From assembly GCA_020205615.1 (NCBI GenBank), contig CM035167.1:61135436-61199435 (forward strand): DNA of 64,000 nt. Direction: 5' to 3'. The notes under the pieces were generated by a model. That model was given only the letters and a program-made list of their open reading frames with translations. It did no database searches and was not told where the DNA came from. This stretch comes from Panax quinquefolius. Its lineage: Eukaryota > Streptophyta > Magnoliopsida > Apiales > Araliaceae. The translations under genes were made by a program, and so were the position numbers. This document shows positions 12,898-48,500 of this stretch, one piece after another (the first letter of the stretch is position 1; each line of letters opens with the position of its first letter).

Positions 12898-12909
12898 AAG
12901 AAGGGAGAT
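12898..12909 (+). other. Polypurine tract of gypsy element 1
   Basis: AAGAAGGGAGAT sits immediately before the 3' LTR start (TGTAAAAC). The minus-strand family member has the matching AAGAAGGGGAGGT beside its LTR at 49185-49197. It would prime plus-strand DNA synthesis. Confidence 0.8.
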
Positions 12910-16300: not shown

Positions 16301-16499
16301 ACATGGCGGTGCTTAAGCTAGAAATCTTCTATAAATAGAGGCCTAGTGCTTCATTATTTTCACGAATTCATTCAAGCTATAGAGAGAGAAAGTATAGAGA
16401 GAATAAGAGAAAGAAGAAGAGTATTTTTTTACTACACTATCGCAAAGATTCAATCTCCTACTAAAAGTAAGGGGTGTTATTCTTTCTTATTCATGAAGA

Positions 16500-16840
16500 G
16501 AACTGTTGTTATTCCATTGCTTATTATTACATTGGAATAACTCAGATATGCGGTTTACCCTATACTTGGTGACATTCTTCTATTATTCTGTTGGAACATC
16601 CATGTCATGTGTTTTACACCTGACCGGTTCCGTCTTATTATTATTCATTGGAACATCCCGTCTGCGTGTGTTTCTACGCCGGACCGGGTTCCATTCTTTA
16701 TTATTCATTTGGAATATCCATGTCTCATGCGCTTTTGTGGGACCGGTTCCATTCTTTATTATTACATTGGAATATCACATCAAGCATGCGTTTTACTTGG
16801 GACTGGTTCCGTTATTTATTATTCTGTTGGAATAATCTGC
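16500..16840 (+). repeat. Minisatellite-like block in the solo LTR
   Basis: This is the counterpart of the block at 6560-6960. Units contain TTATTATT..TTGGAATATCC and GCGTTTTAC..GGGACCGGTTCC at a spacing of about 55-65 bp, ending in GCATGCATGGTGATTTCTTT shared by all family LTRs. Confidence 0.75.
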
Positions 16841-17928
16841 ATGTGCGGTCTATCGCATGCATGGTGATTTCTTTTGTTATTCCATTTTTTTTATACTCAG
16901 TTGGTTAAAACTTTGACTTTTATACTCCATGAAATTAGTGGAATATCCATGATATTTGCGCTTCATCCAGTATCCTTTCATGAAAATATTCTTCTAAGTA
17001 TTTTTGAGTTTTACTCTACAAAGCAGTATCATGTTGACAGTTTGGATGTTATTGGTTCCTAGATAAATTAATTCTTGAACTTGTTTTATTGAATTCTTAT
17101 ATCATTTTCATCATCCTCATGTTTATATTATGTTGAAAGTCATCTGTGGCCTGTAGTGCATAGATGGACTTAGTATGATTATGACCAGAGACTATTCGAT
17201 GTGATCATGACCGTAATGTTACAAATGATGTGGTAAAAATCCTCAGTGGCACGTAGTGCATTGATGGACAGTTGTTGGCATGATCATGACCATTAATGAA
17301 TACACAAATATTCTTGGCCCGTAGTGCATGAATAATTGTGGTCGTGATACTAAAGAATATCCTTGGTCGAAAATGCGGGGTGATTCGATGATGTGGAATA
17401 TTTATTAAAGTCGAGTCTCAAATTATATAATGAAGATGAAAAACCTTTACAATCATAAAAGATAGTAGATTTTATTTTCTACTTGACTCTTTTGATGGAT
17501 TCTTGGTTTCATTTGTAGTTAAACTTGATGTTCATTATATTTTATCAGTTTAACACTGTTGTAGGCTAATGATAATTTATTCTGCATTATCTTTGTCATA
17601 ATATTTCTTACTGAGCTAGTTGAGCTCACCCTTTCTTTCACTGTTCTCTTCAGGAAATGAGAATATAGCTGGGACAAGTCGGGGAACGGAGTAATGGTCC
17701 AGAGGATAGCATTAGTAGTCCTCACTATTCTGTGAAATAGTGTGATAATAATTGTAATGAGGACTCCTTTTGAGTTTGTATGATCTCTAGTAGACAATAT
17801 TGTATTCAAACTCACAGTTTATGTCGTATTGTACACGACAGTTATATTAGTAAGTTATATTTAAATTCTGTACCATGTATCTGACTACCCAAGATGGGTG
17901 ATGTATACCTATTTTTGGGGGCGTCATA

Positions 17929-17973
17929 ACCTTTCTTTACACCACCTTTGTCACAGCAAGGTCTTCTTCCCAA
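17929..17973 (-). pseudogene. Captured R2R3-MYB exon 1, 5' part (copy 1)
   Basis: This is the upstream part of the split exon whose remainder is at 5496-5582. On the minus strand it begins at the place of the start codon, but ATG is changed to TTG. It continues through [14 protein letters not shown], where the gypsy insertions interrupt it. Without the start codon and with 12.3 kb of retrotransposon inside it, the fragment is dead in this copy. Confidence 0.85.
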
Positions 17974-18044
17974 CTTCTAATTCCTCATATAAATAAGGGA
18001 TTACTTTATCCCATGACTGTACTAATCCCTCATAAACATATCAG

Positions 18045-18097
18045 TTTTAATCCCTTGATAATGGCTTGCATTTCTTACGCTAAAGACTTCAACCAAT
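18045..18097 (-). pseudogene. Captured formin FH2 exon, second piece (copy 1)
   Basis: This corresponds to 35452-35505 in copy 2 (minus strand, after acceptor TTGCAG), encoding the IQLKSLAEEMQAI segment. One base is lost here at a CTG, which breaks the frame. Confidence 0.75.
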
Positions 18098-18176
18098 CTG
18101 CAAGGAAGACCCTTAAGCAGCCATTTTCTAGCAACAATGTTTGATATTGGTAGTGAGAAGTGAATAGAATGCCAAC

Positions 18177-18248
18177 CTTTGATGCAGGTTCGAGACTAAC
18201 AAGATCCTCATGGAAGTCTAATAGAGCTGGCAACTTAGATGAAAGAAC
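18177..18248 (-). pseudogene. Captured formin FH2 exon, first piece (copy 1)
   Basis: This 72-bp exon lies between a TTGTCAG acceptor and AAAG/GTTGGC donor and reads VLSSKLPALLDFHEDLVSLE, matching the FH2 region of plant class II formins. It has three substitutions against the copy at 35585-35656. Formins nucleate actin filaments; only a small part of the FH2 domain is present, so this is a captured fragment. Confidence 0.82.
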
Positions 18249-20553
18249 CTGACAACAAAAAGTTATGAGATGAAATATTAACTCATAATTATAACAAGAT
18301 TCCAACACCACCAATATTAGGGGAAAAGGATGACCAGAATAACATGTAGTAAAGAGAAACAATGGCTTGTTATCATGTCGGAAAATTCTTTTGTTTACTT
18401 CATTACCAATAAATCCAATGTAAATACGTGAATAATCAATCGGCATATGACAATGAGAAGGCCATTACAATGACAATGCAATATCATTGAAAGCAAAACC
18501 CCATCATCTTATAAACATAATTAGATACAAATCTTGCCTTTTAATAAAGTATAATTCTTAGAAATTAGGAAACATCTCTTATTAAGAGGAAGTGCAAAAA
18601 TTGACAAAAATAGAGCGAGGTGGTTGTTGATTGCCGGGATGATTACAGAAACGCTAAGAATAGACAAAAGGCTAAAATTTTAAAAGTGCCCTAACAAGAA
18701 AAGAGGGGGAGGGGGAGGATTAACGGAGCCTGTGTGCTGCAAGGAAGATTTTTTGCACAATAATGAAGACAACAAAGCTAAGAAAATGGCTCTAATAAAA
18801 CAAGTTTTTGCCTTTCCTATGAATTGAGATATATCGGACAATCAGAGAACACAAAATTAGATTCTTTGAGCATAAATCAATTAGATAATAAAGAACAAAA
18901 GAATTAACAAGACATTATAGAAGAGAGAAACAAAATTACATTTTGAATCAGCCGCAAACCCTAAATGAAAATTTTCAAATAATCAAAACTCTACAATAAT
19001 CAAATACTACATATTATCAAGTAAAGTATTACCTTAATCCAAAATTTGGTGTAGAGCCAAGCGAAATCGTAAGCTTGATATCGAAATAACGGATCCGGCA
19101 AATTCATACAGTGCAACTTCGATAGAAGATCAAAGAGCAAATGACTATTTCCATTTACAAGACTAAAATCGCAAAATTAGACCCAAAGGTTTCCACTACC
19201 CAACCCTTAATTGTCTCCAGCTCCATGGTGGTTTTGTCTTCTTCATCGGCGGTGTCCTTGTCGTAAACTTCTCTCAATCGGTTGGTTTATGCGATAGAGA
19301 CGGTTGCAGCAAGCGTGTGGTCCGAATCGAACCTAAGTGCTCGCAAAGGCGTCTTGAAGAGGGTCGAAAGGTGGAGAAAGGAAATCGTGAGGGAGAAGTT
19401 TCAGATCTCGCCTGGAGACTAGGAGCCCTAGCATAAGAGTGATACTTATTATTTAAGTTTTCACTTCAGCGTCATTTTTTAAACCTCCGTGTTTTACTCG
19501 AATGATAACGTTTTTTAAAAAAAACGTTATCTAACTAACACCAAAAAATGCCCTTTTAAAAAGATAACGTTTTTGCATATGTATCTATAACGTTTTTTTT
19601 TTAAATCGTTGTAAAAAAAATACCACAACGTTTTTATAAAAAACGTTGTGGTTTAAGTGTTGTCTATTTACTATTTTGTAGTAGCGATTCTATGTGTTTT
19701 CTAGGTGAGATAAAGGCATTAGCGTGAAGTCCTTATACCAGAATACAACACAAAAATAAAAACTTAGCCTAAACATCAAACATCAGCAAGATCCATGGCC
19801 TGCAAACACGTTGTCAGAGGTTACTGGAATTCTGGGCTGCCCAGAATTTATTTTCCGTGAACGGTCAACCTACTTTGACCAATCATATCATGATTTCTAG
19901 ACCATGATTCCAATTTCAGAATAAAGACCACATAACATACTACAAGGTTGAATATTTAAAACACTAAACATGTTAACATACACCGATGTATGAAGCCTGA
20001 CATTTTCTTGTCAGACCACATTTAAAAATATTTCCAAATTTTTTTAAAACATGATTTCGAGCACTTTGATGTTATGGATTCACTATATAGCAACCCAGAT
20101 CATCAAGTGACATCCTTATACACTACTTTAAACAACAAACAACAAAATCTAACATCAAATCATAAGATTTTTATAAAGCTAAGGTTTATACCTTTATGCT
20201 CAAATCCTTTGATTCTGACCTCCGATCATGCTCTTGATGATCAAGAGACTTGTTTAGAGACTGAAATACTTTGTATTTTCGGAGGTTGGGAGAGAGAGAG
20301 TTGTTAGGAGCTTGGGTGAAAAATGACCAACTTTTTATGACTTTCTCTCTCTAGTTCTATAATATATCTATTGGTGAAATGAATTCAGCTGATAAGGTGG
20401 CTGAATGCTGTGAATTAAGTCACATAGGGTGGTTAGAGTTGGTGAACAACTCTCAATTTGCCATGATATGCAAGCTAAGTCACAATAATGCAAAAAGTGT
20501 ATTATAGTCATTTCGCATTTAATTTTAATGGCATTTTGGATATTGGCCAAACT

Positions 20554-29065: not shown

Positions 29066-32000
29066 ACTAATGAGCACTTCCAGAATATCCAAAGGAACAA
29101 AGCCTCTGGTTGGCACTATAAAGATACATCCTACCTGAAGGGAACCAGAGAGCACTCAACGAATGGCATGCATGCTAACAGAAGATCTAAGCACCAACCC
29201 AATCTGCATCAAGATTAAGTTGTAAAGCCATTAGAGATGAAGTCTTCCACAAGATGATCATAAGACTTCAGTAACTAATTAATGAAAGTCAGCAAGTGCA
29301 GTAATTGTCAAGTGAACAGAAGACAACGATCTTGGAAGCAACCGAGATCGTAGTGTTTGCCAAACAAAGAAAGAACTGATGGAAAGTGAACCGAGATACT
29401 GGTTAGTCTCTGAAGAACAAGGCTAAAATGATTAAACGTAGGGTCAGTCCATTGATGATAAGTGAACGGGAGATCACAAGGAGAAAGAGAGCTGGACGGG
29501 CCACAAATCTGAAGTATCTTGCTATTCGGAGGGAACCCAGAGCAAGGAATTAGGCCATCACCACTCGAGAACAAATAAGCAAATAGAAGTGTTGAAACAC
29601 TCGCACAATAGAAGGAAGAGGTGTTCTACATCAAGATCCAATCAACACTCTTCAAGATCGTAGTGTTAACTCTACCAGTCAATGAGCAACACCGAACAAG
29701 ACACTACGATCAGGTCCTCGAAGACATACATCAAAATCGTAGAGTTCGAACACCCGAAGATTAAAGCATTGGCAACCGTTCAAACTGAAGGATGGTATTC
29801 GGACAAAAGCTTATTGAGAGCATCAATGCAAAAGGAAAACCTCTGATTGAGAAATCAGAAGGAGATAATAAAGTCTTCGACCTGCCCAAGACATTAAAGT
29901 GACAACTCTGATGGGGTAGGTGAAACAGTAGACTGCAATGTCAGATAAAGTATGTCATGTCACCTCAGCAGTCTACCTCTGTCAACTCGAGATTTGTGAA
30001 GATATTTGAATAGCCTTCAATAGCTACTTTCCAACGGATGGATTGGGAAGGAGTATAAATAGGGAAGAGCTTCAAAGATCGAGGGTTACTGGAGTTGCCG
30101 AGTTTGGAGTAAAAGGTGGACTATTCTAAACCAAGTGAAAAAGTGAAGTCCGAAGGCTCACTCTATGATCCACCAAGAACACTCAGATATATGCAAAGGA
30201 AGAAGTAGAAGTGAGAATTCTACTATGTAGAAGTGAGAGTTCTACTACAAGAAGAGTGTTCTGAACTGCCGAGAGAAAGAAGAGCATCGTGTCATCTTGG
30301 TATCCATCATGGGAAGACTCTAAGTACAATAGAGAAGAGCTCACAGTCATCTTAGCAAGTCCATCATTAGAAGATATCGAGTATCAAGAAGGGAGATCGC
30401 AAACGTCATCATGGTGGCAAGCATGAGAAAGTTTCTAAGTACCAAGAAGAAGAACTTACAGTCATCTTGGAAACCTATCATGCGTAATCCATCATGTATC
30501 AAGAGAAAGATCTTCAAGGAAGTTCATCAAGGATCATCCGGCGTGGTTGAGTAACTAAAGAAGTTGAGCATCATGCAACACTCAACTGCACTTCAAGGAT
30601 GATCACGCCAAGCTGCTAAGTATAGAAGATTTTCAGAGCATGAAGACATCTTAGCAGCTCAGCACCAACTCCAACAAACCAACAAACAAACAACGAAAGC
30701 CAGGGCCTGAGGGGTCCTTATCCGGAGGGACTAAACGAAGTTCCAAGCCTGCTGGGCTTGAAGAGTTCCTAGGTAACTGTGAGGGCCCCGAATCCGAGGT
30801 CCTGAATCACTGCGGATCTGGTTCGATCATTCTAACACTACTACTATATTTGCGGAAGATATAAATATAAATTGTTTATACATTAAACTTATATACTTTT
30901 CCCCAAGGTCGAGTAACCTTAACTTAATCACAATTTATAACTTAACTGACACATAACATGATTATCAAACTATACTATTACAAAACTAATCGCGCACATT
31001 AACTTTAATCTGGATCTGTCTTTAATCTTTCCTTGTATCTGACGCGTTCGTCTTAATCTGCAATGTTTATCATGATATAACAAGGGTGAGCATAAGATTG
31101 CCCAGCAAGTTTAAATTCAACAATATAACGATATATCATGATTGAAATGATTTGAATAATTGGTTGGCTATAATTCAACAATATAATTGTGAACTAGCAT
31201 GAACAAATTTAAGACTGAACAAGTATTATACATGAACAAATATATCTGAACCAACTGGTAATGAAGGTGATCAGCCTTTCATACCGACTTATACATCTGA
31301 TATGTATAGAGTACAATTCATGGCAACCAAAGAATGATTAACCATAAGCTTATCCGAATGAAACAACTCTTAGTAGAGTTAAGTAAAAAAATAAACTTGC
31401 TCGAATCAATTTGATTCTTACCGCTTACGCAATTTATATCGCTTTATCCAAGACCTAATATTAGTAATATAGATCTCCAATATTATAATAATATCATCAC
31501 AATATAATACTATTATATATATATATATATATATACATGGAATAACCTAAACACATAATACATAACACATAACCCTATCAGTCTACAACACACATAAAAC
31601 TCGGTATCAGGTCAAACTATTTCAGTCTGACTTGAACTCGATAAAATTCTAACATCCCGACGGTTTAGTCGGACTTTTATCGAGTCTAAGTTTAATTAAA
31701 CTCTGACTCTGACTAAACACTTAACCATTATCTACGATAATTTTAATAACAGTCGAAATATTTTTCGTAAGCTCGTAATAATTTTTAAATAATTATTACT
31801 ATTTATCTTGAATTTTCAATCATTAATACGTATTTAAATGAATTAAATACCACATAATTCTTTTATCATTAATATCTATTCATTATCAAATATTAATGAA
31901 ATACATGTCATAATATTATAATATATTTATAATATCATAAAGTATTTTTAATACTTTAAAATCATATTTATATAATTTTAAACACTTAAATTCATTATCG

Positions 32001-33013
32001 ATAATTGTTTTTATATTAAAATATTAATATTTTCATGAAAAAATATCAAAAGTTATATTTTATAACTTAAAATATTTTTATAATACTTAAATCATTTTCA
32101 TATGATTTTTAAATCATTTATTCTATTTTTCCATAATTTATTTAATATAGTTATTAAATAAACTAATTATCATTAATATTAATTAATTAATAAAATTCAT
32201 CACAATATATTAAAAGTCACTAAAATAACTTAAAATATTTTATTATACCATAATATTATTTTTCATGTATTAAAATCATTTTAAAATCATTTATTTAATT
32301 TTATAATTAAATAAATTAAATACCATTTATATTCCAAAAATATTTAATATTTATGAAATATACTTAAAATAATTAAAAGCTATTTTTCAGATTTTAAAAT
32401 AATTTTTTGAAATTTATTTTGTATTTTTAATAATTAAAAACCATTTTTTTCTATTTATTTAACTAAAATAAGTATTTTCCAAAAATAAGTGTTGCTATAG
32501 GGGCTTTAGGCGACAAATCCGTCGCTGTTGGTGTTCTTGAGCCTCAAGAACACTGACAGGCCGGTTCTCAAGGGTCATGGTTTGACCGTGTTTAATTTTC
32601 GTTCTAGCTTGTTTATGTCTCATCTAAGACTCACATCGTGTAGTAGGAATGTAGCACTACAATCTTCAATCATCGTTTGGGTCATAAAATATCACAACAA
32701 GAAGATCCGGGCCTCCAAAATAGTTGTCAGACGTGTTCTTGTGCCTAGAATCTCCAGCAGTGACAAGGGTCGCTTTTTGAGCCTTTACATCTTTGTTTTC
32801 AAGACTTTTTTAATGTGTTATAAAGGTGTACTCATGTAGTATTAATGTCAGTGTACAATTGTATAATATTAAAACATCATTACAACAACAAATACGAGCG
32901 ATCTAGACCGATCAAACTAGAGGTCAAGATCTGTTCTTCAACAAATTCTGGGTTTTCCATAATTGGTCTAAGGTAGTTGGTCAACACCGGTTTGACCGCT
33001 TATAATTTTAATT

Positions 33014-33330
33014 CACTACTACAAAACAGTAAATAGACAACGCAAAAAAAAACGTTTTGGTTTCAGTCAGAAAAACGTCGTGGTTAAGGGTGTTATCTAT
33101 TTGATACCCTTGCACAACATTTTTAAAACGTTGTAATTAAGCACAATCCACAACGTTTTTTTCTTAAAAAACGTTGTAGATTTATTTTCCATAAATTAAC
33201 ATATGCTTAAAAACGTTGTAGAATGTATGATTCCAAAACATTTTCTGAATAAAAACGTTGTAGTTTAATATATCAGATAACGTTTAGACACTTTCACACA
33301 ACGTTTTTAAAATGTTGTAGATTAAAAAAA
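33014..33330. repeat. Left subterminal repeat array of CACTA copy 2
   Basis: Words AAAACGTTGTAG, ACAACGTTTTT and AAAAACGTCGTGG repeat about eight times. Neighbouring pairs in opposite orientation form AACGTT-centred palindromes such as CAACGTTTTTTTCTT followed by AAAAAACGTTG. In CACTA elements such repeats bind the TnpA-type protein. The right array is at 36890-37071. Confidence 0.8.
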
Positions 33331-33599
33331 AAGAAAAAATTATATTTCACCTAAATTACCAATGCACCTGCAATATGCTAATGCCATAATATATAGCTAA
33401 AAACACAATTACAATTACACAATTACAATAATATTCTACTTTTTGCACTTCTGCTACAAAATTACAGCTGGTTGAATCTCTTATTCCTACTAGATTAGAT
33501 CACACCCAACAGAACAAGGAGAAATCCTTTACAACATTATAGTAAAAGATGAGAGAATCAGTAAGACCACTCTCAAGGCAAAGTCATCTCAGGAGGAAG

Positions 33600-33690
33600 C
33601 TGGTAATGGCACTCCACTTCCTTCCTTGCATCAAACCTTTTCATGGAATCCCTAACTGAATACAGTGGATTTTCTTGTTAATTTCTCACA
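33600..33690 (-). pseudogene. Possible further captured terminal exon (unrecognised)
   Basis: On the minus strand, after TTCAGTTAG (a possible acceptor), a short frame reads DSMKRFDARKEVECHYQLPP, then EMTLP and a stop. Its position downstream of the other captured exons and its clean stop suggest a captured last exon. I cannot assign the gene, and it may be chance. Copy 1 (about 3835-3925) carries it with several changes. Confidence 0.3.
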
Positions 33691-33996
33691 CCTGCCAAAA
33701 GATACATAATGACTTTAAATGTAAAAAAAAAAAGAAAAAAAAAAGTAATTGGTTAAAATGTCAAAAAACAATTGTTCTGTTCCAAAATTTTCCAATTCTT
33801 TCTTCTGTTCTGATCAACAACAAACACTTTCAGTTGCTAAACAGAGCAGTCTATGTTCTGCAGGTCTAATTAACACCAGAAAAGGAGGGAAAAACGAAGT
33901 AAAACTATATAGTTCTTATGACAAAGTCAGATACTTAATGGCTTTTCCTTCATGACAGTCTCAAACTAATTTCCTTATGTGAGTCTAAAGAGTTAC

Positions 33997-34143
33997 CTGC
34001 ATAATTTTCCTGGTAAATGTTAAAGATTTTCCTGATTTAATTAGGAAATCTGACATTGCCCCAACAATGTAGCCTGAAATTGCCATTGTTCCCCATGGGA
34101 CTGCACTAAACCATGCTGCTTGTTTCAAGTTCACATTGAACAC
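33997..34143 (-). pseudogene. Captured exon of a PHT4-family anion transporter
   Basis: This open exon is exactly 147 bp (49 codons), between an AAATAG acceptor and a GTAACTC donor. It reads NVNLKQAAWFSAVPWGTMAI, then SGYIVGAMSDFLIKSG and ends TRKIMQ. These are conserved blocks of plant PHT4 (plastid phosphate/anion) transporters of the major facilitator superfamily, covering a loop and one membrane span. No start, no further transporter exons and no stop are present, so it is a captured fragment. It is open in this copy and broken in copy 1. Family identity is from motif recognition. Confidence 0.85.
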
Positions 34144-34604
34144 CTATTTGAACAAATGTGAACAAAAAATTAATTAAATAAGATCAACATTCTGGAATAT
34201 TCAAAATAGGTAGGAATCACATTGAAATGATGTGGATAGACAGATGCAATAACAGATAATTTGACTGTGATCATATGGTTAACCCATCATAAATGTATCG
34301 CACCCGCCCATATCAAACTTTCCACATAAATCAAAGGAACAAACAGTTCATATATAAGAATGAGGAATTGCAAGAATGCTACCTATAATTGTACCCACCA
34401 ATTGCTTGCTAGGATATAGAAGCAACAAACAATAAAAGCTTAAGTATCACTTAAATGAATCCTTAGGTGCTAATAGTAAGTAATATTAAGAGATGAAGAA
34501 GGCTTAAGGTATCACTTAACGCAGGTCCAGAAGTCCCGTATTCTCCAATATTTTATTTGACCTTACTCCTCTGGGTTGGGATCTCTGAAACTTTCTTATG
34601 CTGA

Positions 34605-34675
34605 TCAATCACTCTTAACCTCTTGTGCTCCGATTTCTTGCAGATAATGTTCTGCTTCCAATGCTGCCATGCATC
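34605..34675 (-). pseudogene. Captured last exon of NADPH-dependent thioredoxin reductase
   Basis: After the acceptor TAATGCAG the exon encodes [18 protein letters not shown], then EVKSD and TGA, the typical C-terminus of plant NTRA/NTRB reductases (end of the FAD domain). It keeps the natural stop codon and some 3' sequence. The redox CxxC and nucleotide-binding domains are absent. It lies between the MYB fragment (upstream on this strand) and the PHT4 fragment, so a read-through transcript could splice onto it. Confidence 0.85.
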
Positions 34676-35247
34676 CTGCATTACATGAATGGAAATAAAC
34701 TTTAGATTGAATGAATATAAAGATAATGGTGAGTTATCACGCACATGACTATAAACTTTGCACCAGTAACAAACTATATGATAAAGCATAAGCTGTAGAT
34801 TGTGGAATTCAAAATCCTATTGCAAATCAGTAAAGGAGGAGCTCAATAAGATCTGGAAGGCGTTAGATCAAACAAGGTACTACTTTTAGTACTTCATTCA
34901 AAAGTTGGAACTTAGAAGTCCCGATCAAATAATGCCTAGAGTATGGCCACATAAGATTTCAGATGGTAAAATCACTACCAACTTCATACTTGAACAAGCA
35001 AATGGCATACACTAAATATGTTCCTGCAATAACCAGAGATAAAACATGTACCAACAATTCAGCTGAGTTTTAGCTTTCTTTCATTAAGTTTAGGTTGTGC
35101 TTCAAGTCAGTACTTTTGATAACCTCAAACTTTTGCTCTAGTAACAGAGGCAAGAAAACTAGAGTTCTACCTCTAGTAACATGGAGTCTTTGACAAACCA
35201 AATGGTTAATAAATATGGGCGAAAAAAATAAAGTTAAGACAAAATAC

Positions 35248-35380
35248 CTGCATGTTTAGGGAGAGATCGCCAGGTACCATGGCCATGTGTGGTTATGTAA
35301 TCAACAAGAATCTTGTCCTCTTCAGGAGCCCAAGAACCTTTCTTTACACCACCTTTGTCACAGCAAGGTCTTCTTCCCAT
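35248..35380 (-). pseudogene. Captured R2R3-MYB exon 1
   Basis: A 133-bp exon from ATG at 35380 to the donor AG/GTATTTTG at 35248, the canonical length and phase of R2R3-MYB first exons. It encodes [17 protein letters not shown], then [20 protein letters not shown] and RSLPKHAG, that is the N-terminus and most of the R2 repeat with two of its tryptophans. The second exon (rest of R2, R3) is not found downstream. The exon is fully open and preceded by 5' leader-like sequence joined to the formin fragment. On its own it could give only a truncated DNA-binding piece. Confidence 0.93.
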
Positions 35381-35451
35381 CTTCTAATCCCTCATATAAA
35401 TAAGGGATTACTTTATCCCATGACTGTACTAATCCCTCATAAACATATCAG

Positions 35452-35505
35452 TTTTAATCCCTTGATAATGGCTTGCATTTCTTCTGCTAAAGACTTCAAC
35501 TGAAT
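35452..35505 (-). pseudogene. Captured formin FH2 exon, second piece
   Basis: After acceptor CTTGCAG the sequence reads IQLKSLAEEMQAIIKGLK, then leaves the formin match, marking the capture breakpoint. It continues in phase from the exon at 35585-35656 across a short (79-bp) intron. The breakpoint lies about 70 bp upstream of the MYB start codon. Confidence 0.85.
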
Positions 35506-35584
35506 CTGCAAGGAAGACCCTTAAGCAGCCATTTTCTAGCAACAATGTTTGATATTGGTAGTGAGAAATGAATAGAATGCCAAC

Positions 35585-35656
35585 CTTTGATGCAGCTTCG
35601 AGACTAACAAGATCCTCGTGGAAGTCTAATAGAGCTGGCGACTTAGATGCAAGAAC
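35585..35656 (-). pseudogene. Captured formin FH2 exon, first piece
   Basis: A 72-bp (24-codon) exon between TTGTCAG and AAAG/GTTGGC reads VLASKSPALLDFHEDLVSLE and AASK, a signature stretch of plant class II formin FH2 domains just before the IQLKSLAEEMQAI segment. Both exons and the intron are kept, so capture was from genomic DNA, not from a cDNA. Confidence 0.88.
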
Positions 35657-36429
35657 CTGACAACAAAAAGTAATGAGATGAAATATTAACTCATAATTAT
35701 AACAAGATGCCAACACCACCAATATTAGGGGAAAAGGACTGACGAATAACAGGTAGTAAAGAGAAACAATGGCTTGTTATCATGTGCTGGAAAATTCTTT
35801 GTTTACTTCATTACCAATAAATCCAACAGAAATACGTGAATAATCTACTGGCATATGACAATGAGAAGGCCATTACAATGACAATGCAATATACTTGAAA
35901 GCAAAACCCCAGTCATCTTATAAACATAATTAGATACAGTACGCCTTAATAAAGTATAATTCTTAGAAATTAGGAAACATCTCTTATTAAGAGGAAGTGC
36001 AAAAATTGACAAAAACAGAGCGAGGTGGTTGTTGATTGCCGGGATGATTACAGAAACGCTAAGAATAGACAAAAGGCTGAAATTTTCAAAGTGCCCTAAC
36101 AAGAAAAGAGGGGGAGGGGGAGGATTAAGGGAGCCTGTGTGCTGCAAGGAAGATTTTTTGCACAATAATGAAGACAACAAAGCTAAGAAAATGGCTCTAA
36201 TAAAACAAGTCTTTTGCCTTTCCTATGAATTGAGATATATCAGACACCGTAGAACACAAAATTAGATTCTTTGAGCATAAATCAATTAGATAATAAAGAA
36301 CAAAAGAATCAACAAGACATTATAGAAGAGAGAAACAAAATTACATTTTGCATCAGCCGCAAACCCTAAATGAAAATTTTCAAATAATCAAATACTACAT
36401 ATTATCAAGTAAAGTATTACCTTAATCCA

Positions 36430-36830
36430 AAATTTGGTGTAGAGCCGAGCGAAATCAGGTAAGCTTGATATCGAAATAACGGATCTGGCAAATTCATACG
36501 GTGCAACTTCGATAGAAGATCAAAGAGCAGCGACTGTTTCCATTTGCAGCACTAAAATCGCAGCCCGAACCCAAAGGTTTCCACTACCCGAACCCTTAAT
36601 TGTCTCAAGCTCCGGCGGTGGTTTTGCCGTCTTCATCGGCGGTGTCCTTGTCAGAAACTTCTCTCGATCGGTTGGTTTGTACGATAGAGACGGTTGCAGA
36701 GCAGGTGGTCCGACCGAACCGGTGCTCAGCGTGCCGGAAGAGGGTCGAAAGGCAGGGAGAAAGGCAATCGCGAGGGAGAAGTTTCAGATCTCGCCTGGAG
36801 ACTGGGAGCCCTAGCATAAGAGTGATACTT
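36430..36830 (-). other. GC-richer patch at the head of the captured block (possible promoter or first exon, unrecognised)
   Basis: In contrast to the AT-rich surroundings this stretch is GC-rich and has open frames on the minus strand, ending in a possible donor AAG/GTAATACT near 36415-36423. It lies upstream of all captured exons and could be the 5' end of a further captured gene, supplying promoter and leader. I do not recognise the protein. Copy 1 (about 19030-19430) has frame-changing differences. Confidence 0.35.
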
Positions 36831-37956
36831 ATTATTTAAGTTTTCACTTCAGCGTCATTTTTTAAACCTCCGTGTTTTACTCGAATGACAACGTTTTTTA
36901 AAAAAAAACGTTATTTAATTAACACAAAAATAATGCCCTTTTAAATAGATAACGTTTTTGCATATGTATCTATAACGTTTTTTTTTAAAAACGTTGCTAA
37001 AAAAATACCACAACGTTTTTATAAAAAATATTGTGGTTTAAGTGTTGTCTATTTACTATTTTGTAGTAGTGATTCTATGTGTTTTCTGGGTGAGATAAAG
37101 GCATTAGCGTGTAGTCCTTATACCAGAATACAACACAAAAACAACAACTTAGCCTAAACATCAAACATCAACAAGATCCATGGCCTGCAAACACGTTGTC
37201 AGAGGTTACTGGAATTCTGGGCTGCCTAGAATTCATTTTCCGTGAACGGTCAACCTACTTTGACCAATCATATCTTGATTTCTAGACACTATCAGACCAT
37301 GATTCCAATTTCAAAATAAAGACCACATAACATACTACAAGGTTGAATATTTAAAACACTAAACATGTTAACATACACCGATCTATGAAGCCTGACATTT
37401 GCTTGTCAGACCACATTTAAAAAATTTTCCAGATTTTTTTAAAACATGATTTCGAGCACTTTGATGTTATGGATTCACTATATAGCAACCCAGATCATCA
37501 AGTGACATCCTTATACACTACTTTAAACAACAAACAACAAAATCTAACATCAAATCCTAAGATTTTTATAAAGCTAGGGTTTATAACTTTATACTCAAAT
37601 CCTTTGATTCTAACCTCTGATCATGCTCTTGATGATCAAGAGACTTGTTTAGAGACTGAAATACTTTGTATTTTCGGAGGTTGAGAGAGAGAGAGAGAGT
37701 TGTTAGGAGCTTGGGTGAAAAATGACCAACTTTTTATGACTTTCTCTCTCTCTAATTCTCTAATATATCTATTGGTTCAATGAATTCAGCTGATAAGGTG
37801 GCTGAATGTTGTGAATTAAGTCACATAGAGTGGTTAGAGTTGGTGAACAACTCTCAATTTTCCATGATTTGCAAGCTAAGTCACAATAATGCAAAAAGGG
37901 TATTATAGTCATTTTGCATTTAATTTTAATGGCATTTTGGACATTAGCCAAACCCT

Positions 37957-38660
37957 TAGGGTTTAGGGTTTGGGTTAGTGTTTAGGGTTTAGACCATTTA
38001 GGGTTTAGAGTTTGGAACATTTAGGGTTTGTAATTTAATTTTCTAGAATTTTCAAATTTAGATTTTCAAAAATAGAAAAATTAATATTTTTAAATTATAA
38101 TTAGAATTTTCTAATTATATTAAAATTTCTTTATCATTACTTGAATCTTTCTAATTAGGATTAATATATCCTAATTAAAATTACTAATTTAGCAATTAGG
38201 GTCAAAATCACGGATTAGGGTTTACAACCCAAAAATTAGGGTTTCTAATATAAAAATAATTTTCTAATTTAGAAATTAGATTTCGTAATTAGATTAGGGT
38301 TTTCTAATTACTAATAACTTGAAAATTAGGATTAATATTTCCTAATAAACATTAAAAATATTAAATTAACACTTAGGTTTTTCCTAATTATAAAATTAGG
38401 GTTTCAAATCCAGAAATTAGAGTTTTATAAATTCGAAATTAGGGTTTGCTAATTAATTAAGCTTTACCCTAATTATTATTATAATTATTTACACTTACGC
38501 CATTAAGTTCCCAATTTAGGGTTTTATACACCTAATTAGGGTTTCAGATTCCCGAAACTGAAATTGGGGTTTCCAAAGCCGGTTTTAGGGTTTCTTGTTA
38601 ATCGTTAGGGTTTTCTAACCGAACGTTGACGTTTTTAATATATAAATTAGGGTTTGTTAC
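37957..38660 (+). repeat. Telobox-rich segment of element T (copy 2)
   Basis: CCTTAGGGTTTAGGG and variants open the segment; TTAGGGTTT recurs at about 15 places up to 38650, set in an AT-rich background. The pattern matches copy 1 (20554-21260), so it predates the duplication. Confidence 0.85.
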
Positions 38661-39380
38661 AGATATTGTTTATATGGTCAACCCTTGACCCTTAACCACA
38701 TACTGTACACATTTACACATAACATATTCATGTATTCCCTTAATCCTGAATAATTCACCTAAATCATTCACAGAATTTTGAAATCTTCAAAATTCTATCT
38801 TAAAAATATCAAACGCATACACTTATTTTCTGTCTAGTTTCTAATTTTGAACCTTAAATCAATTAATAAAAATTTTAAAAATATTCAAAATTCTCAGGTT
38901 GTCACAGGAACTAGAGGAGTCCCAAGGCTGCTGGCCTTGAAGAGTTCTTAGTGAACTGAAGTCCCAAGGTCACGGCCTCAAGGAATCTTAGTAATTGGTC
39001 TTGCCGCCTTCCTTAGTAGAAATCCTACTAGTTGAAAGCAGAAGAGTGGATTAGGAGCTTGAGTCTCTGAACCACTTAAAACCTCTTGTGTCTTATACAT
39101 TATGCCATTTAAATTATGTTCTATAACTGCTATAACTGCTATGTATGTTTTAACTGCTTACAACCAAACTAACTCTACGAACAATGTATGTATGATTACG
39201 AATATATCAATGAAGGGAATCTTTTACTTATTCTGTTGTGCTTGAAAAGATTCTTGTGTTTGTCATATGTTAAATTATGAGCAATACAAAGTAAACCAGA
39301 AAAGTATTTGAAATAAAAAGGATTTATTCAACCCCCCCCCCCCCCTTTTAGATCTATTGTGCCTACTGGGAACTAACAAT

Positions 39381-39392
39381 TGGTATCAAAGC
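39381..39392 (+). other. Primer-binding site of R, unit 2
   Basis: TGGTATCAAAGC lies two bases after the end of LTR2, identical to unit 1. The central LTR therefore acts as 5' LTR of unit 2 as well as 3' LTR of unit 1. Confidence 0.85.
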
Positions 39393-42332
39393 AGGTTCTC
39401 ATGCTATATTCAAAAGTTAATTGCTTTGAGTCTGATCCCAGGCACATACATTGTTCTAAACTTAGTTTAGTAGTAAGTAACTTGTTATATGCAGATGAGC
39501 TCACACGTTGGAAATACTGTGTATAGGTAAATGTGTATATACACCTGAAGCTGCTCAGATTGGTCCATGTTCTCGATTGCTACACCAACAAGACCAATCC
39601 TTCCTGCAGTCAATCTTGTAGTCTGAAGATCAGACGAGAGAGCTCAAGAGACATCAATGACAAAGAGTCAAGCATCCACCAGTCTGAAAGATGAAAAGTC
39701 TATACATGCTATGAAATGCTTATCAATAAAAGAAAGAAGATCTTCTCAAACTTATGTCTGGCCAACCAACAGCTGGGTGCAAACTTTGTAAACTAAAGGA
39801 TGTCAAAGATTTTAATGCAGAGATTCTCTTGGCCTACATCTTCAAGATCACGACTGATTGATTAAAGGCCAACACGAGCAATAAGCTGTCAGGAGCAAAA
39901 GTGAAGCTATGCACATCAATGCCTAAACTGAGTATATCTAAGATAAATGATTGTTAAGAGACTGACAGTAAAAAGGTACGGTTCCTCACTATTACACGTG
40001 TTCATCACAAAAGCACCCTCTTATGAACCATAACAGTATTTTGTCAAGAAGTCATAATCTACCTAAAAAGGTGAAGAGAGAAAGTACCCTTAGGATGGAA
40101 ACTCAAATGTCTATAAACTTTCTCTCTATCCAAGTTTTAGGTTGAAGATGACATCTTGAAGGAAATCTGAAATGGGTCATAAGAGCATCACAGGTTAAAT
40201 GAATTTTATGTGAAGTAATCTTTGTTGGTGGGTTAGTATGTATGTACAAATCCTTGTTCTAAGTGTTTGATAACACAAAGAGTATGATCAGTTCTAAAAG
40301 AGTATCTTGATGATGTGTAGAAACTGATCACCTCCATGAATCAACTAAATACTCTTAAATCGTAGAGTTGACTCTCACTCTACGAACACTTAAACATTGT
40401 GAACATAACCCAGCAAATGATGAAACCATCAAAGATAAAGTGTGTGTTATTAAATGTCAAATCTTACACACACACTCACCTTCATGCATATCAAAGTGTA
40501 TTATCTAAAACTAGTCTTATGCATGAATATGATGTTGGTGATAAATGTGATTATTATCTAAATAAGAGGAACAGGGATTTAGAAAACTAACCTAGCAGGA
40601 CCCATTTAATTATGGGTACCAAAAATAGAAATATATTTAAACCTGCAGGTACTTGGTCAGTCTAACTACACTAAGGAATGCTGAAGAAGAAGACTTCAGT
40701 CAAGAAGACTCAACCAGCAGAAGGCTAAGGACTGTTCAGAGATGATCCTGATAAAGTTCCTATTTGTACAAGCCAATCCTTGAAGACCCTCTGAGCTAAC
40801 CAGAATGGAGCTCACATGGCTGATAATCTGTGAATGGAAGCATGTCAGTTAACTAAGGGATCCTATGTGCTCAAGAGCAAGCAAAGAATGTTATATGAGA
40901 AGAATCCTCAAAGGAGCTCACAACAGAGGATCATTGAGCTTAAGTCAAGAGGAGTTCATTACAAAAGCAGAACCTCACAAACACAAGACTGTAAATGAAG
41001 ACTACGATCGTAGTGCTGTCAAAAGATCGTAGAGTGATTAGTCTTGAAAATATCCATGTCTACGATACAAGAAGATTTGTGTGATAATGATGATTCCAGT
41101 TAGAAGGAGATATTCAGGGCTACCTCCAAATGAGTCTAAAGCAAAGGGAATCACATTCATCCGGAAGACACTTTCACCATACAGACGATGATGATCATTG
41201 AGAAATAACAGCACTAAGTTATACTATGAGGAAATATACCAGCTACAAAGTCCCAAAACTTTGTGGCTGATGAATCAAATGAAGATCCATAGTCAGTAGG
41301 AACGTCTCAAAATGTACTACTGATAACCTTTCAACCACCCAACCCAACATCGTGAAGTGCCTACGATCAAACATGTGATCATAGTGTAAGAACAGGAGGA
41401 TACCACGATCTCAGCAAGCAATTGTCTACAGTTGGTAGAGGATATCCCCACCAGAAAAGGTCTCATGAGATGTCATTGCAAATCACTTCTATAACATTTC
41501 ATCTGGAAAGCGCCTCAGGGACAAACCTGACCCTTAGCTCACTCTAAGAGGTTGTCCCTTCCTGAGCTACCTTGTCCCAGAAGAATTACTTGATCAAATT
41601 CATCTCAAGGACCAAGTCAGACAACGATCGTAGAGTCGAGGTTGAAGAGAACTCCATGATCGCAGTGCAACCTCAATGATCATAGAGTCGAGGTTGAAGA
41701 GAACTCCACTATAGCAGTGCAACCTCAATGATTGTAGAAGACAACTCGACGATCGTAGTTCTACTAAAGGGTACTCCAATTCACAAGGAGCTTGAAAAAT
41801 GAGACAATTGCTCAACCATTCAAAAGGAGGAGATAAGTTCGAATACATCAGTGATTTAGCTATGTTGCATCAAGGTGAGGATACAAGACAAAGCCATCCA
41901 CTGCAACATCTCTCAAAAGTTGATCGTTGAGTTAACAAAGAAAAACGTAGAGTCCACAGTTGCCTTACTATGCTACTCTACGAATCAAAAGGTCAATGGT
42001 CAAAGCCACGTTGTTTAAACGATTACTCTCCTAAAAGGAAATATCTAACTGAAAAGTTATGGGGAGTTACAGCTCATTACTGGGCATCGTGCAACCAATG
42101 GTCGGTTGACACATCACTAGTTATGCAGAGTTAGAAGGAACTGTCATAAAGACAAGTTTAAATCTGTAGATATTTATCAAAAGTTATCGAACCTTTCTCC
42201 CTCCCATTTTGAAACCCTAAAATCCTCTCAAGAGCCAAAATAGGTTAACACCCCAAAGCTTTATCAAATCACAATCATCCATCTCTTATAAACCTCTCCG
42301 AATCAAATATCCACATTCTTTGAGCTGATCAA
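39393..42332 (+). other. R internal region, non-coding part (unit 2)
   Basis: Collinear with 21988-24924. There are no conserved pol motifs. The small frame at 40399-40590 (MNITQQMMKPSKIK start) is conserved in both units but short and without a recognisable domain; it may be a gag relic. Confidence 0.6.
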
Positions 42333-45300
42333 ATGGAAAACTGGCGAGTAATCACTGGCATTCAGCTAGGAACCAAGTTATTCGAGAAATCCGAAAAGAT
42401 TTTCAGAGACATTCTCAAACTTGTGAAGAAAGCTAGATTCTCAGAATGCCTTGAGGCTAACACTCGAGTATATGTTGATCTGGTTAAGGAGTTCAACTCA
42501 AATGCCTCTATAAACTTCGGAACCTTTTCTACCAAGGTTAAAGGTCAGTCTCTGAAGTTGAAGTCTTCTGACCTCAATCAATGCCTAGGTTTTCCTAACC
42601 AAGGGCTGAAGAACCTTGATGATGTCAATACTGAACAAGCAAAGGAGTTCATGGGGTACCAAAGAAACCCTAGTCTGAGAGACATGAAGAAGAAGGAGTT
42701 TCCTGAAGAGTACGAGTTCCTTGCTGAAATAGTTGGAAAATGCATACTGTGCTAGGACACTGCACATGACACAGTGCTTGACCAACAGCTGAAGATAATG
42801 TCAGCAATATTTCTGAAGAAACAAATCAACTTTGGAGCTATCTTGTTCGATCAAATCTCCAAGTGGGTAGAAAAAGCTGAGATGAAGAAGTCCACTGAAA
42901 AACCACTGACTAAGGTGTTTCATGGTAGACTGCTAAGTATTGTGTTGAAGAAGAAGCTAGGAGGAAAGATTAAGGATGATGTGGGAGAACCTTTGAATGT
43001 TCACAAAGTGATGTCTCCACAATTATTTGTGAACTGGAAGAAGAACCCTAAGGAGAACCGAAGGCTGACAACCGGGAGCAGCAACAGGGCCTTTGTAAAA
43101 AAGAGGAGAACAGAAGAGGCAGAGAGCTCTGAGTCTGATGACTCTATGCCAACAGAAATCACACCAGCCAGAAAGAAATCCAGAGGTGTGAAGAAAGCTG
43201 GTGATGTGAAGAAAACCCAGACCCTATCAAGAAGAGTCTTCACCAACGTCAAAGATGAAGAAGAAAAGGGCCTAACTGCTGAAACAACAAAGAGAAGAAG
43301 TAACAGATTACTTCAAGGCCCATTCAGCAAGAAAGCTAAGGTGGAAGACAAACCACCTCGACCTCCCAAAAGCAATACATCTGTCAAGAGAAGGACGTGA
43401 GTCGTGAAGAAAAGGAGACTGATGTCAAGGCTGAGTCCTCTTAAACCAAATCCAGCAGTGAAGGTGAAGCTTGATTAATGAATGAAAATTCAGCATCTGC
43501 TGATAAAGAAGAAGAATGCTCAAGCCCCATGGCTAATTCTCAGAGTAGTCACTCTGCAAATGAAGAAGAGATTCAAGATGACCAAACTCCATCCCCAAAT
43601 GCAACTGCCCCAACAAGCCCAGATAATGGGTCAAACAATGTTGTCTCAAAAGAAGAAGAATATGCCCCTGCCCTTGCTAAACCTGAAGGAAGTTCTTCTG
43701 ATAAACTAAAGGCTTCCAAGTCTGAAGAAGAAGAGGAGTCTGACTCTCCTATAGCTGAACCTCCAAGAAGAAGGAAGAGCTACAGACTGCAAGCCAAATT
43801 TGCCTCCAAAAGGAGAAGTGATCAATCAAATGCCCCCATTGAATTAATTGATGATGAGTCTATATCACAGAAAGAAAGTTCTGAGAATGAAATGCAGCAA
43901 GAAGTATTCTCTGCTGGAAATGATCAGGATGGTTTAGGGTCCGAGAGAGAAGATATTGAAAAAGATTCTGGTTCTGCACCACAGGAAGCAGATGAACAAG
44001 AAGATTATCCAGTTTTCTCTCCTGCAAGATTTAGCATAAGGATAGTAGTGGAAGTTTCAAATAAACTACCAGAGGCTCCACCAGAGAGATGGGTGAACTA
44101 TGGAAATGAGCAGCTCAAGGTAGTAAGAATGACTACCTTTGACATAGCTAAAAACTGGAATAACATGGTTGCATCGCTCGACCATTCTCTCTGAATCCTA
44201 ATGACTTCAGCGATGAGATGGTTCTTCCAGATGGATGCCATGGCTAAAGGCCCACATCAAGGAGATGGAAGCTATCTCACCGGTGCTTCTCTCACTTTCC
44301 AAGCATGGAGCTGGTGGCTCAGAACTTCCCAAGGGCGAAGAAGTTTGCAACCAAAACGATCAAATACCAGCCTCACTTCAAAGTCTATCGACAGTCTGGC
44401 AATCACTATATCCCCTACGATCGTAGAGTGGACTCTGAAGGAAGAAGGAACATGATCAAGGAGATGATCGTAGAGTCTGGCCACTCTACTGCTGAGACTG
44501 CTCAAATTCAAAGTCAGAAGCTTCCAACAACCCAAACACTGCTCTCTGACATTCCCTCATCCTCAACCAGCAATTGGTACTCAACAATTGTTCCGATTCT
44601 CAAGATTTTGAAAATATGTCCAAGAATGAAAATCTTAGAGTCCAATCCAATGCTCAACCTGAAGCTGCCCAATAAGAGGATCAAACTATTTTGGAGTAGA
44701 AACTACTGAAGAGTTCTGATGAACTAAGTGAGAAAATATCTCTACTTACTGAAGAGTCACAGAAGATGACAGCAAAAGGAGAAAATTCACTTCAGAACAG
44801 ACTTCAAGCTACTATGGCTGATGTATCACTCAAACTCCAAGAGAGAGATAACATCTATTCGAAGGCCATACAACATCAAAAGGCAGAAGCTCTACGAGTT
44901 CAGAAGGCAAATGAAGAGCAGATCCAAGCCCTCTTTGACAAGATTGATGAATCAAGGCGGTCTTTCTCGGTCTGACTTGAGCTAGGCCAACAGAACTCAA
45001 GTTTGAAGTTGCTAACTCCTCCTACCTAATGGAGCAGCTTATGTCCAACATGGAGCAGCTCTCTCAAATGATTAATGAAAAAAAGGGGGAGAAAAAGAGG
45101 CACAGAAAGAAGAGGAGCAAGAGGCACTCAAAGAAGAGCATAGGGATAAGAGAGAAGAAGTCAAAGAAGAAGACAACAGCTGCAGAAAAAGAATCATCAT
45201 CTGATGGGGAGCCAAAAGATGATGATCACATGATCGCAGAGTCTGAGGGGGAGCATATTCAGAAAGATGCTGAAGGGGAACAAAGCAAAGACAGAAGGTC

Positions 45301-45346
45301 ATCATCCCAGCGGGAGCAAGAGCAAGAAGAAGAAACAGATGAGTAG
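42333..45346 (+). pseudogene. R accessory ORF, unit 2 (broken)
   Basis: The start MENWRVITGIQLGTKLFEKS (42333) is intact, and the first 140 codons are open to a TAG after KCILC. The next segments follow in shifted frames: KKQINFGAILFDQISKWVEK and VFHGRLLSIVLKKKLGGK (to 43400), a Ser/Glu/Lys-rich part (43478-44194), PPERWVNYGNEQLKVVRMTT, NHYIPYDRRVDSEGRRNMIK (44390-44460), a coiled coil (44700-45075) and the basic tail KKRHRKKRSKRHSKK with an acidic end (45029-45346). Frame breaks near 42755, 43395, 44190 and 44960 mostly differ from those in unit 1, so the source ORF was probably continuous. Function is unknown. The charge pattern and coiled coil fit a structural or env-like accessory protein. 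Confidence 0.6.
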
Positions 45347-45576
45347 CTGATCATCAGACATCCTGGAAACACACATGGAGCCAAAGAGGTACATCTCTAA
45401 CTAGTTAGGTATGTTCTGGATCCAGGATGTAAAGTGTCTTTATATATAATTTGCCATATCTTTATAAATGACATTCATGATTATCTGTTTTAGAAATACT
45501 GCTGCTCACTGTATATAAGATTCATTCATAACATGCATATACACTTATTATTTTTGTCATAATCAAATAGGGGGAG
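45084..45576 (+). other. Repeated AGGGGGAG (multi-PPT) motifs, R unit 2
   Basis: Perfect copies lie at 45084-45091, 45246-45253 and 45569-45576, with one-base variants at about 45204 and 45306. The last abuts LTR3 and is the probable polypurine tract. Confidence 0.7.
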
Positions 45577-45577
45577 A

Positions 45578-48500
45578 TTATCAGGAATAAACATATAAAT
45601 GATATTCCTATTTACATATGATTTGATTATGATATATATGAATGAATATGCAAGTATGCTTGCATTAAGAAAAGTTGTAAAGTCCTTTGATAGATAATAA
45701 AAACATGTGTACAAGGACTTAAAATGAATTGATCAAATATGTTAGGTTGATCCTACATAAGCAAAACAGCTTTGTAAAGTCTTTAAAAAGAAATGATGTA
45801 CAAGGACTATAAATATAGAAAGATCAAGCATTTTAGGTTGATCTTATGATGTAATTGATAGGCTTGTCTGATCGTTGAGTACTACACCAGAGATCGTAGT
45901 CTGCCAGGAGAGTCAAGGATAACTCGAGAGCTATCGAGGCAGAATCGTAGTCTGCAAGATAGTAGATCTCAGAGTTCGTAGACTGCCAGGAGAAATGATG
46001 AAGGATCGTGGTATATCGAGAAGATCTTCCTCGGGATCGTCAGGTGTCTTTGAGAGTAATGTTCGAATCGTAGAGAGAGACACCGCCACTGAGCCGATAG
46101 AATATCTACCGAAGCTAAGTTAGAAACGCAGACTATACTCGGAGTCATAGAGTCTACCGATGCCGAGGCCAAGTCAAGGAACGTAGACTACACTAGAGAT
46201 CGTAGAGTCTACTGATGCCGAAGCCATGTCAAGGATCATAGACTACACTCTGAGTTCGTAGAGTCTATTGATTACATGTAGAGATCGTAGTCAAGCAAGA
46301 TCAGATGAAGACAACAAGCACAATGCAGAAACCGTAGAGTGTCAAGTTCTGATATCAGGATCATACTGTCTGCACAGCCGAAGCTGAATCATAGAGTGAA
46401 GAACTATGACCTCAACAGAAGTGCTCACAATGCATAGGTAGAATCGTAGAGCAAGTATGATTCTCAACTAATGATCACTCCCAGAATATCCAAAGGAACA
46501 AAGACTCTGGTTGGCACTGCAAAGATAGATACATCCTACACGGCGGAACCGAGAGAGCACTCAACGAATGGCATGCAATCTAACGTAAGATCTAAGCACC
46601 AACCCAATCAGACATCAAGATTGAGTTGTAAAAGCCATTCGAGATGAAGTCTTCCACAAGATGATCATAAGAAGACTTGATGGCGATTAAGGAAAGTCGA
46701 CAAGTGCGATGGTTGTCAAGTGAATGAAGACAACGATCTTGGAAGCAACCGAGATTGTAGTGTTTTCCAAACAAAGAAAGAACTGATGGAAAGTGAACCG
46801 AGATACTGGTTAGTCTCTGAAGAACAAGGCTAAAGTGATTAAGTGTAGGGTCAGTCCATTGATGATAAGTGAACGAGAGATCACAAGGAGAAAGCGAGCT
46901 GGACGCGCCACAAATCTAAAGTGTCTTGCTATTCAGAGGGAACCAGAGCAAGGAATTAGGCCATCGATCTCGAGAACGATTAAAGTAAAATGTAAGTGTT
47001 GAAGCCTTTGCATGATAGAAGGAAGAGGTGTTCTACATTGAAGATCCAATCAACACACTTCAAGATCGTATTGTTAACTCTACCAGTCAATGAGAAACAC
47101 TCAACAAGACACTACGATCAGGTCCTCGAAGACATGCATCAGAATTGTAGAGTTCGAACACCTGAAGATTAAAGCATTGGCAACAGTTCAAATTGAAGGA
47201 TGGTATTCGGACAAAAGCTTATTGAGAGCATCAATGCAAAAGGAAAACCTTTGATCGAGAAATCAGAAGGAGATAATAAAGTCTTCGACCTGCCCAAGAC
47301 ATTAAAGTGACAACTCTGATGGGGTAGGTGAAACAGTAGACTGCAATGTCAGATAAAGTATGACATGTCACATCAGCAATCTACCTCTGTCAACTCGAGA
47401 TCTGTGAAGATATTTGAATAGCCTTCAACTGATACTTTCCAACGGAAGGATTGGGAATGAGTATAAATAAGGAAGAGCTTCAAAGATCGAGGGTTGCTGG
47501 AGTTACCGAGTTTGGAGTAAAAGGTGGACTGTTCTAAACCAAGTGAAAAAGTGAAGTCCGAAGGCTCACTATACGATCCACCAAGAACACTCAGATACAT
47601 GCAAAGGAAGAAGAAGAAGTGAGAGTTCTACTATGTAAAAGTGAGAGTTCTACTACAAGAAGAGTGTTCTGAACTGCCGAGAGAAAGAAGAGCATCCTGT
47701 CATCTTGGTATCCATCATGGGAAGACTCTAAGTACAATAGAGAAGAGCTCACATTCATCTTAGCAAGTCCATCATGAGAAGATATCGAGTATCAAGAAGG
47801 GAGATCGCAAACGTCATCATGGTGGCAAGCATGTGAAAGTTTTTAAGTACCAAGAAGAAAAACTTACAGTCATCTTGGAAACCTATCATGTGTAGCCATC
47901 ATGTATCAAGAGAAAGATCTTCAAGGTAGTTCATCAAGGGATCATCCGAAGTGGTTGAGTAAATGAAGAAGCTAAGCATCATGCAACACTCAAGGGCACT
48001 TCAAGGATGATCACGCCAAGCTGCTAAGTATAGAAGATGTTCAGAGCATGAAGACATCTTAACAGCTCAGCACCAACTCCAACAAACCAACAAACAAACA
48101 ACAAAAGCCAGGGCCTGAGGGGTCCTTGTCCGGAGGGACTAAACGAAGTTCCAAGACTGCTGGTCTTGAAGAGTTCCTAGGGAACTAGAGGAGTCCCAAG
48201 GCTGCTGGCCTTGAAGAGTTCTTAGTGAACTGAAGTCCCAAGGCTGCTGACCTTGAAGGAATCTTAGTGATTCAGGGTGCTGCCCTTTCTTAGTGGAAAT
48301 CCTGCTAGTTGAAAGCAGGAGAGTGGATTAGGAGCTTGAGTCTCTAAACCACTTAAAACCTCTTGTGTCTTATACATTATGTCATTTACATTATGTTCTA
48401 TAACAGCTATAACTGCTATGTATATTTTAACTACTTACAACCAAACTAACTCTACGAACAATGTATGTATGATTACGAATATATCAATGAAGGGGATCTT

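Follow-up and report, generated by a model that had tools for sequence, protein, structure and literature searches.

A gene-capturing CACTA element of Panax quinquefolius with a composite cargo of at least five host gene fragments

How do exons of unrelated host genes come to lie side by side between the ends of one transposon, and does the plant make use of them? The question is raised by a CACTA element in the window analyzed here, a 64,000-nucleotide stretch of Panax quinquefolius DNA (assembly GCA_020205615.1, contig CM035167.1, positions 61,135,436 to 61,199,435, forward strand; coordinates below are window positions unless a contig is named). A preliminary description, made from the sequence alone, had reported CACTA ends and four captured gene fragments in a single orientation, whose minus-strand splice sites might join them into a chimeric transcript, and had judged several donors within about 4 kb to be unusual. 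Our analysis makes it very probable that this is a non-autonomous, gene-capturing CACTA element (Pack-CACTA), with a cargo that was built stepwise, later transposed and is carried as passenger DNA.

The element spans 33014-37071 (4,058 bp). Its terminal inverted repeat (TIR) is 36 nt long, with arms at 33013-33048 and 37037-37072 that are 89% complementary. The left arm, assigned by inverted-repeat search to 33014-33048 on the plus strand, begins CACTACTACAAAA, and the right end (36831-37071, plus strand) closes with ...TTTTGTAGTAGTG. TIRs that open with CACTA and a 3-bp target-site duplication are features of the CACTA (En/Spm) superfamily, and the window element has both, the duplication being ATT on either flank (33011-33013 and 37072-37074), as first described. 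Related elements are flanked by other 3-bp duplications, namely AAA (L039), TCT (L046), CAA (L047) and TAT (L041). All 14 copies of the subterminal motif AACGTT are confined to the two ends, eight within about 290 bp of the left one (33051-33300) and six within about 185 bp of the right one. The left end common to related elements extends over 33014-33916 (plus strand). When its first 301 bp were compared with the host genome (3.57 Gb in 821 contigs), 2430 first-look candidates emerged; the best 40 of them were scored, and each was at least 91% alike. A candidate C-terminal exon at 33578-33699 gave no match and falls within this common end. A literature search for the end sequence found no paper.

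Six-frame Pfam scans of the element detected no transposase domain, and the same scans also missed the formin, NADPH-thioredoxin reductase (NTR) and PHT4 pieces described below. The CACTA superfamily includes non-autonomous members, and a transposase is expected of autonomous members only; the window element is a non-autonomous CACTA element. Its ends would have been mobilized in trans, by the transposase of a CACTA partner elsewhere.

Four of the cargo fragments read on the minus strand. The leftmost is a PHT4;2/ANTR3 fragment (33908-34265), recognized from protein and genome matches, with a 147-bp exon at 33997-34143 bounded by an AG acceptor and a GT donor. Protein searches with this exon gave E<=1e-3 for 206 of 207 candidates; among the 120 listed, many were named anion transporter 3 or PHT4;2 and others only as MFS family. 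The best match was an unnamed protein (96% identity over the exon) and the best named one was from Heracleum (90%), while the exon alone matched nothing in PDB or Pfam. The NTR fragment (34281-35211) contains the last exon at 34605-34675 with its stop codon and a minus-strand AATAAA at 34552-34557, and the last residues of the exon match the C-termini of Arabidopsis NTR 1vdc (E 2e-4) and of 2whd (E 7.6e-4). The R2R3-MYB fragment (35207-35385) was recognized by Pfam and structure matches and carries exon 1 (35248-35380, 133 bp) with an ATG and a GT donor; this exon scored 27.3 bits against the Pfam Myb cut-off of 24.4 and matched the WER structure with E 2.3e-5. The formin-20-type fragment (35395-36384) holds two FH2 exons at 35585-35656 and 35452-35505. 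Together they align to positions 253-293 of Pfam FH2, contiguously across the intron (E 2.5e-6), at 27.3 bits, which is under the cut-off of 34.8. The formin exons had no PDB match, and their protein search gave E<=1e-3 for 202 of 223 candidates. The top five by score were Brassicaceae formins (74-81%), followed among the 120 listed by many entries for formin-like protein 20, at up to 95%. The Pfam, structure and protein matches thus confirm all four identities first assigned. Splice consensus is likewise kept on the minus strand as described, except at formin exon b (35452-35505), which ends at a capture junction rather than at a splice donor. It continues through a 71-bp linker into MYB exon 1, so that exon b, linker and MYB exon 1 form one exon.

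A fifth fragment had been overlooked. The segment from 36383 to approximately 36830 derives from an AN1 zinc-finger gene, which we take to be of SAP type, and reads ...SLSETSLDRLVCTIETVAEQVVRPNRCSACRKRV on the plus strand, with coding sequence at 36600-36746 followed by a deletion of the AN1 core. Compared with a similar locus on C4, about 92 bp holding that core are gone. The fragment matched the AN1 structure 1wfh weakly (E 0.058) and gave no Pfam match on the plus strand. Searching the whole genome for zf-AN1 returned 42 matches, six of which lie at loci matching the AN1 segment of the window (C4:32.85, C13:90.05, C13:115.40, C6:83.29, C6:114.09 and C3:20.05 Mb), in every case on the strand that corresponds to the plus strand of the window. 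Relatives of the cargo were drawn from a query with the cargo itself, for which 40 of 1586 candidates were scored; among these matches, zf-AN1 is present at 6 of the 13 AN1-segment loci outside the composite copies described below. The ratio of observed to expected CpG is 1.07 for 36421-36830 versus 0.24 for 33330-36420. Minus-strand coding readings of 36421-36830, among them a peptide ending in KFWIK before a GT donor, were rejected, the plus strand being that of the AN1 gene. These readings reached no family or structure above the cut-off (weak Pfam E values of 0.05-0.19 were far below cut-offs) and no protein at E<=1; one homologue search, which returned none, took a single frame only. The cargo therefore comes from at least five donors, which include the four already named. 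Because the AN1 fragment reads on the plus strand, the view that all fragments share one orientation does not stand: four are on the minus strand and one on the plus strand. AN1 zinc-finger open frames of 112 aa were also seen at C4:32.85, C13:90.05, C13:115.40 and C3:20.05 Mb and in L054 (1726-2061), in the window orientation. Beyond it, L054 passes into subterminal repeats of CACTA-like type, which looks as though this CACTA family had amplified the end of a zinc-finger gene.

For two fragments, donor loci lie elsewhere in the genome. The formin segment matches C3:160.468 Mb (97.9%) and C19:14.344 Mb (97.0%) over 939 bp, and each locus has one more FH2 exon beyond the part that was captured. 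Relative to the C3 donor, the fragment lacks 264 bp through an internal deletion at 35452-35457. The PHT4 segment matches C4:152.556 Mb (97.5%) and C10:148.091 Mb (97.2%) over 358 bp. Both loci continue on either side with additional exons, which in the part read span residues 146-516 of the reference; at the C4 locus one of these exons has a frame break. Divergence within each pair, in the segments compared, is 0.3% for the PHT4 loci and 2.3% for the formin loci. This pairing of donor loci, together with a best named PHT4 match from Apiales and large contigs numbered up to C24 among those encountered, would suggest an allotetraploid member of the Araliaceae such as Panax ginseng. A chance match can be excluded for the formin and PHT4 fragments, because loci of 97-98% DNA identity with neighboring exons are found elsewhere, and since these lie on different contigs (C3/C19 versus C4/C10) the two fragments are not contiguous in one host locus. 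For both, the element has the captured coding DNA with separate donor loci that characterizes Pack-CACTA elements, and the original proposal of gene capture was right.

The same identities bear on a possible regulatory role, in which small interfering RNAs (siRNAs) from the element, including its reversed AN1 part, would silence members of the five donor families. The element shares hundreds of bases at 97-98% with formin or PHT4 loci, a similarity that could in principle suffice for targeting by siRNAs. The idea that captured fragments give rise to epigenetic conflict, mentioned in PMC8978399, would by analogy point the same way. We nonetheless consider a role of this kind unlikely.

Donors of the other fragments are less clear, and here several points weigh against the Pack-CACTA interpretation. 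For NTR, all 17 of 17 first-look candidates were scored. The nearest one without element ends is C19:27.848 Mb (94%), where the 4.5 kb read contained no element ends and no other NTR exon was seen; as the NTR donor this locus is unproven. Four other genomic matches to the NTR exon are just 80-83% alike, and no second NTR exon was found by eye in the 4.5 kb of L043 or the 1.5 kb beyond. The MYB segment recurs in the related elements L048 and L049. Donors of MYB and NTR are thus not established, no AN1 locus has been shown to be the donor gene itself, and capture from a gene is shown directly for formin and PHT4 only. The relatives on which the next steps depend come from the scored subset of the cargo query. 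Finally, a short transposase remnant could escape the Pfam scan, because in those frames it also failed to detect three of the four fragments confirmed here.

How the Pack-CACTA cargo was put together can be followed in its relatives. Six composite copies were found, two in the window and four more among the scored cargo-query matches. The full five-part cargo is present at 97% at C17:87.73 Mb (L039) and at C24:11.63 Mb, where the outermost left end is gone. It is also present, interrupted and in three pieces, at C19:96.37-96.41 Mb, and a copy at C16:33.42-33.45 Mb comprises two pieces, in which four parts are followed by 43 bp from the start of AN1. The C17 copy is flanked by AAA duplications, and its flanks have no match to window positions 30001-33012 or 37073-40000; it is an independently inserted copy with the same cargo, as is typical of Pack-CACTA elements. 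This separate duplication and the unrelated flanks show that the composite transposed after it was assembled. These copies also speak to the concern that the mosaic is an assembly artefact of misjoined reads. Base-level anomalies at CHG sites in one window copy, described below, would favor that concern, but the mosaic is unbroken at the C17 and C24 loci and interrupted at two more, and we give an artefact next to no weight.

Other relatives carry parts of the cargo. L041 and L042 share the PHT4 and NTR segments as far as 35211, beyond which they continue with other sequence, and L044 and L045 retain remnants of the same two segments. L048 and L049 have the MYB segment, about 2.3 kb of other sequence, and then AN1 with the right end, and L046 and L047 have AN1 with both ends and other content. 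As seen from these common segments, one lineage carries PHT4;2 and NTR fragments and another carries MYB and AN1 fragments. In the composite, the left part of the PHT4;2-NTR lineage would be joined to the right part of the MYB-AN1 lineage, with formin between them, in an order in time that we infer. L041, L044 and L045 hold the PHT4 fragment in differing deletion states, a possible series for dating capture and loss.

Adjacent segments overlap in their BLAST alignments by 9 bp (33908-33916), 5 bp (35207-35211), 6 bp (35452-35457) and 2 bp (36383-36384), values that are upper bounds on the true microhomology. Between PHT4 and NTR, 15 bases (34266-34280) are matched by neither segment. Between MYB and formin lie nine bases, AATCCCTCA (35386-35394), that match neither neighbor; they are part of a short repeat whose other copy is formin sequence at a distance of 45 bp (35429-35441). 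From their sequence, these junctions look like products of error-prone end joining, in which segments would have been joined through short overlaps and copied filler.

The second window copy (copy 1) was identified by self-comparison of the window and lies on the plus strand as a left half at 3306-5582 and a right half at 17928-19687, the two separated by 12.3 kb of retrotransposon DNA. Its flanks match those of the element at 33014-37071 (copy 2) at about 94% on both sides, which is why we attribute the two window copies to tandem duplication and not to two insertions. The repeated unit is 17.4 kb long (29622-47028, about 94% identity), with partial copies at 1-29621 and 47029-48186, and one composite was carried along in its duplication.

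We then considered whether the minus-strand fragments could be spliced into a functional chimeric gene, with a product of a MYB R2 half-repeat and an NTR tail used by the plant as protein or RNA. The window copy keeps its minus-strand splice sites, and an AATAAA follows the NTR stop. Joining MYB exon 1 to the NTR exon gives an uninterrupted frame of 67 residues, so the proposed chimera with its start from MYB and its stop from NTR is indeed in frame. By analogy, the fragments of a comparable element in soybean are spliced as cassette exons (PMC1947982). An in-frame join is nevertheless expected by chance in one case out of three, and the MYB-NTR frame is intact in just two of the six composite copies, window copy 2 and L039, and in L039 the acceptor and the frame of PHT4 are gone. 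In L040 the NTR exon contains a stop; L014 (C19) has a stop in MYB and lacks the NTR acceptor; the C16 copy combines a MYB frameshift with an NTR stop; and window copy 1 lacks the MYB ATG and the NTR acceptor. In addition, the exon with the MYB ATG contains five earlier ATGs (counted by eye), the AN1 fragment is antisense, and the exon changes are mostly nonsynonymous. Between window copies 1 and 2 these exons differ by 13 nonsynonymous and 3 synonymous changes (per-site ratio about 1.2), and divergence in exons is not significantly different from that outside them (p 0.14).

Copy 1 has the longer branch of the two. Of its 71 private C-to-T changes, 33 fall at CHG sites, versus 9 of 71 for three other copies combined. 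The left half of copy 1 also holds 77 private indel columns, where the other copies have 3, 5 and 1. This pattern is consistent with misreading of methylated CHG or with rapid deamination. Because of these CHG-biased changes and private indels, further copies were compared for selection. Copy 2 differs from L039, L040, L014 and the C16 copy by 43 nonsynonymous and 7 synonymous changes in exons without length change, a sum that counts changes private to copy 2 more than once. The composite-copy comparisons gave no sign of selection on the cargo exons, and a functional chimera appears highly unlikely. The cargo would instead be passenger DNA decaying without visible selection, and any transcript a by-product. 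A more speculative scheme, to which we attach even less credence, is that the two intact-frame copies express a short spliced protein of MYB R2 half-repeat and NTR tail, which would disturb binding by MYB proteins, and that antisense RNA to stress-associated zinc-finger genes comes from the reversed AN1 part. If true, the expressed chimera and antisense AN1 would make one mobile element act on several gene families at once.

Helitrons have neither TIRs nor target duplications and move by another mechanism, and in these respects maize Helitrons differ from the window element. They resemble it in that fragments of several genes were gathered stepwise (PMC3288121). The closest parallel is soybean Tgm-Express1, a 5.7-kb CACTA element carrying pieces of five unrelated host genes that are spliced into chimeric transcripts (Zabala & Vodkin 2007, PMC1947982). 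Like the window element, it keeps exons, introns and splice sites of its five fragments. Unlike it, Tgm-Express1 lies in a gene intron and its chimeric splicing has been shown, implying usable splice sites in one direction, whereas the window element has one of five fragments reversed, carries other cargo and is known from DNA sequence alone. In the Tpn1 family of Ipomoea nil, captured host genic regions likewise replace the interior while terminal regions are conserved, and chimeric transcripts have been reported (PMC5105172). In maize, a single Pack-TYPE element often contains sequence from more than one locus, and Pack-CACTA elements lead in this respect (PMC8903248). These elements share with ours the CACTA ends, coding DNA from several loci and a proposed growth by fusion of neighboring elements. 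There is no basic difference from them, and the window case shows relatives with each cargo half beside the composite. The soybean and maize examples weaken the claim that several donors in about 4 kb are unusual. Among the papers that we could search, none names both Pack-CACTA and Panax, and a ginseng genome paper is one of 13 that mention Panax, CACTA and captured. The process has already been described in soybean and maize, and the element is a clear example of it that changes no principle. It is a well-resolved case of growth, with two donor loci, half-cargo relatives, the composite and base-level junctions in one genome, and dating each step would let the fusion model of Pack-CACTA growth be tested.

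The remaining observations concern the tandem unit. Besides the CACTA element, the 17.4-kb unit carries open reading frames with sub-threshold Transposase_32 matches. The retrotransposon DNA that interrupts copy 1 occupies approximately 5583-17927, and adjoining within it we recognized by eye a full long terminal repeat (LTR) element with the duplication CCAAG and a solo LTR with the duplication ACCTT. The LTR pair differs by 9%, versus 6% between the tandem units, though the insertion is in one unit only.

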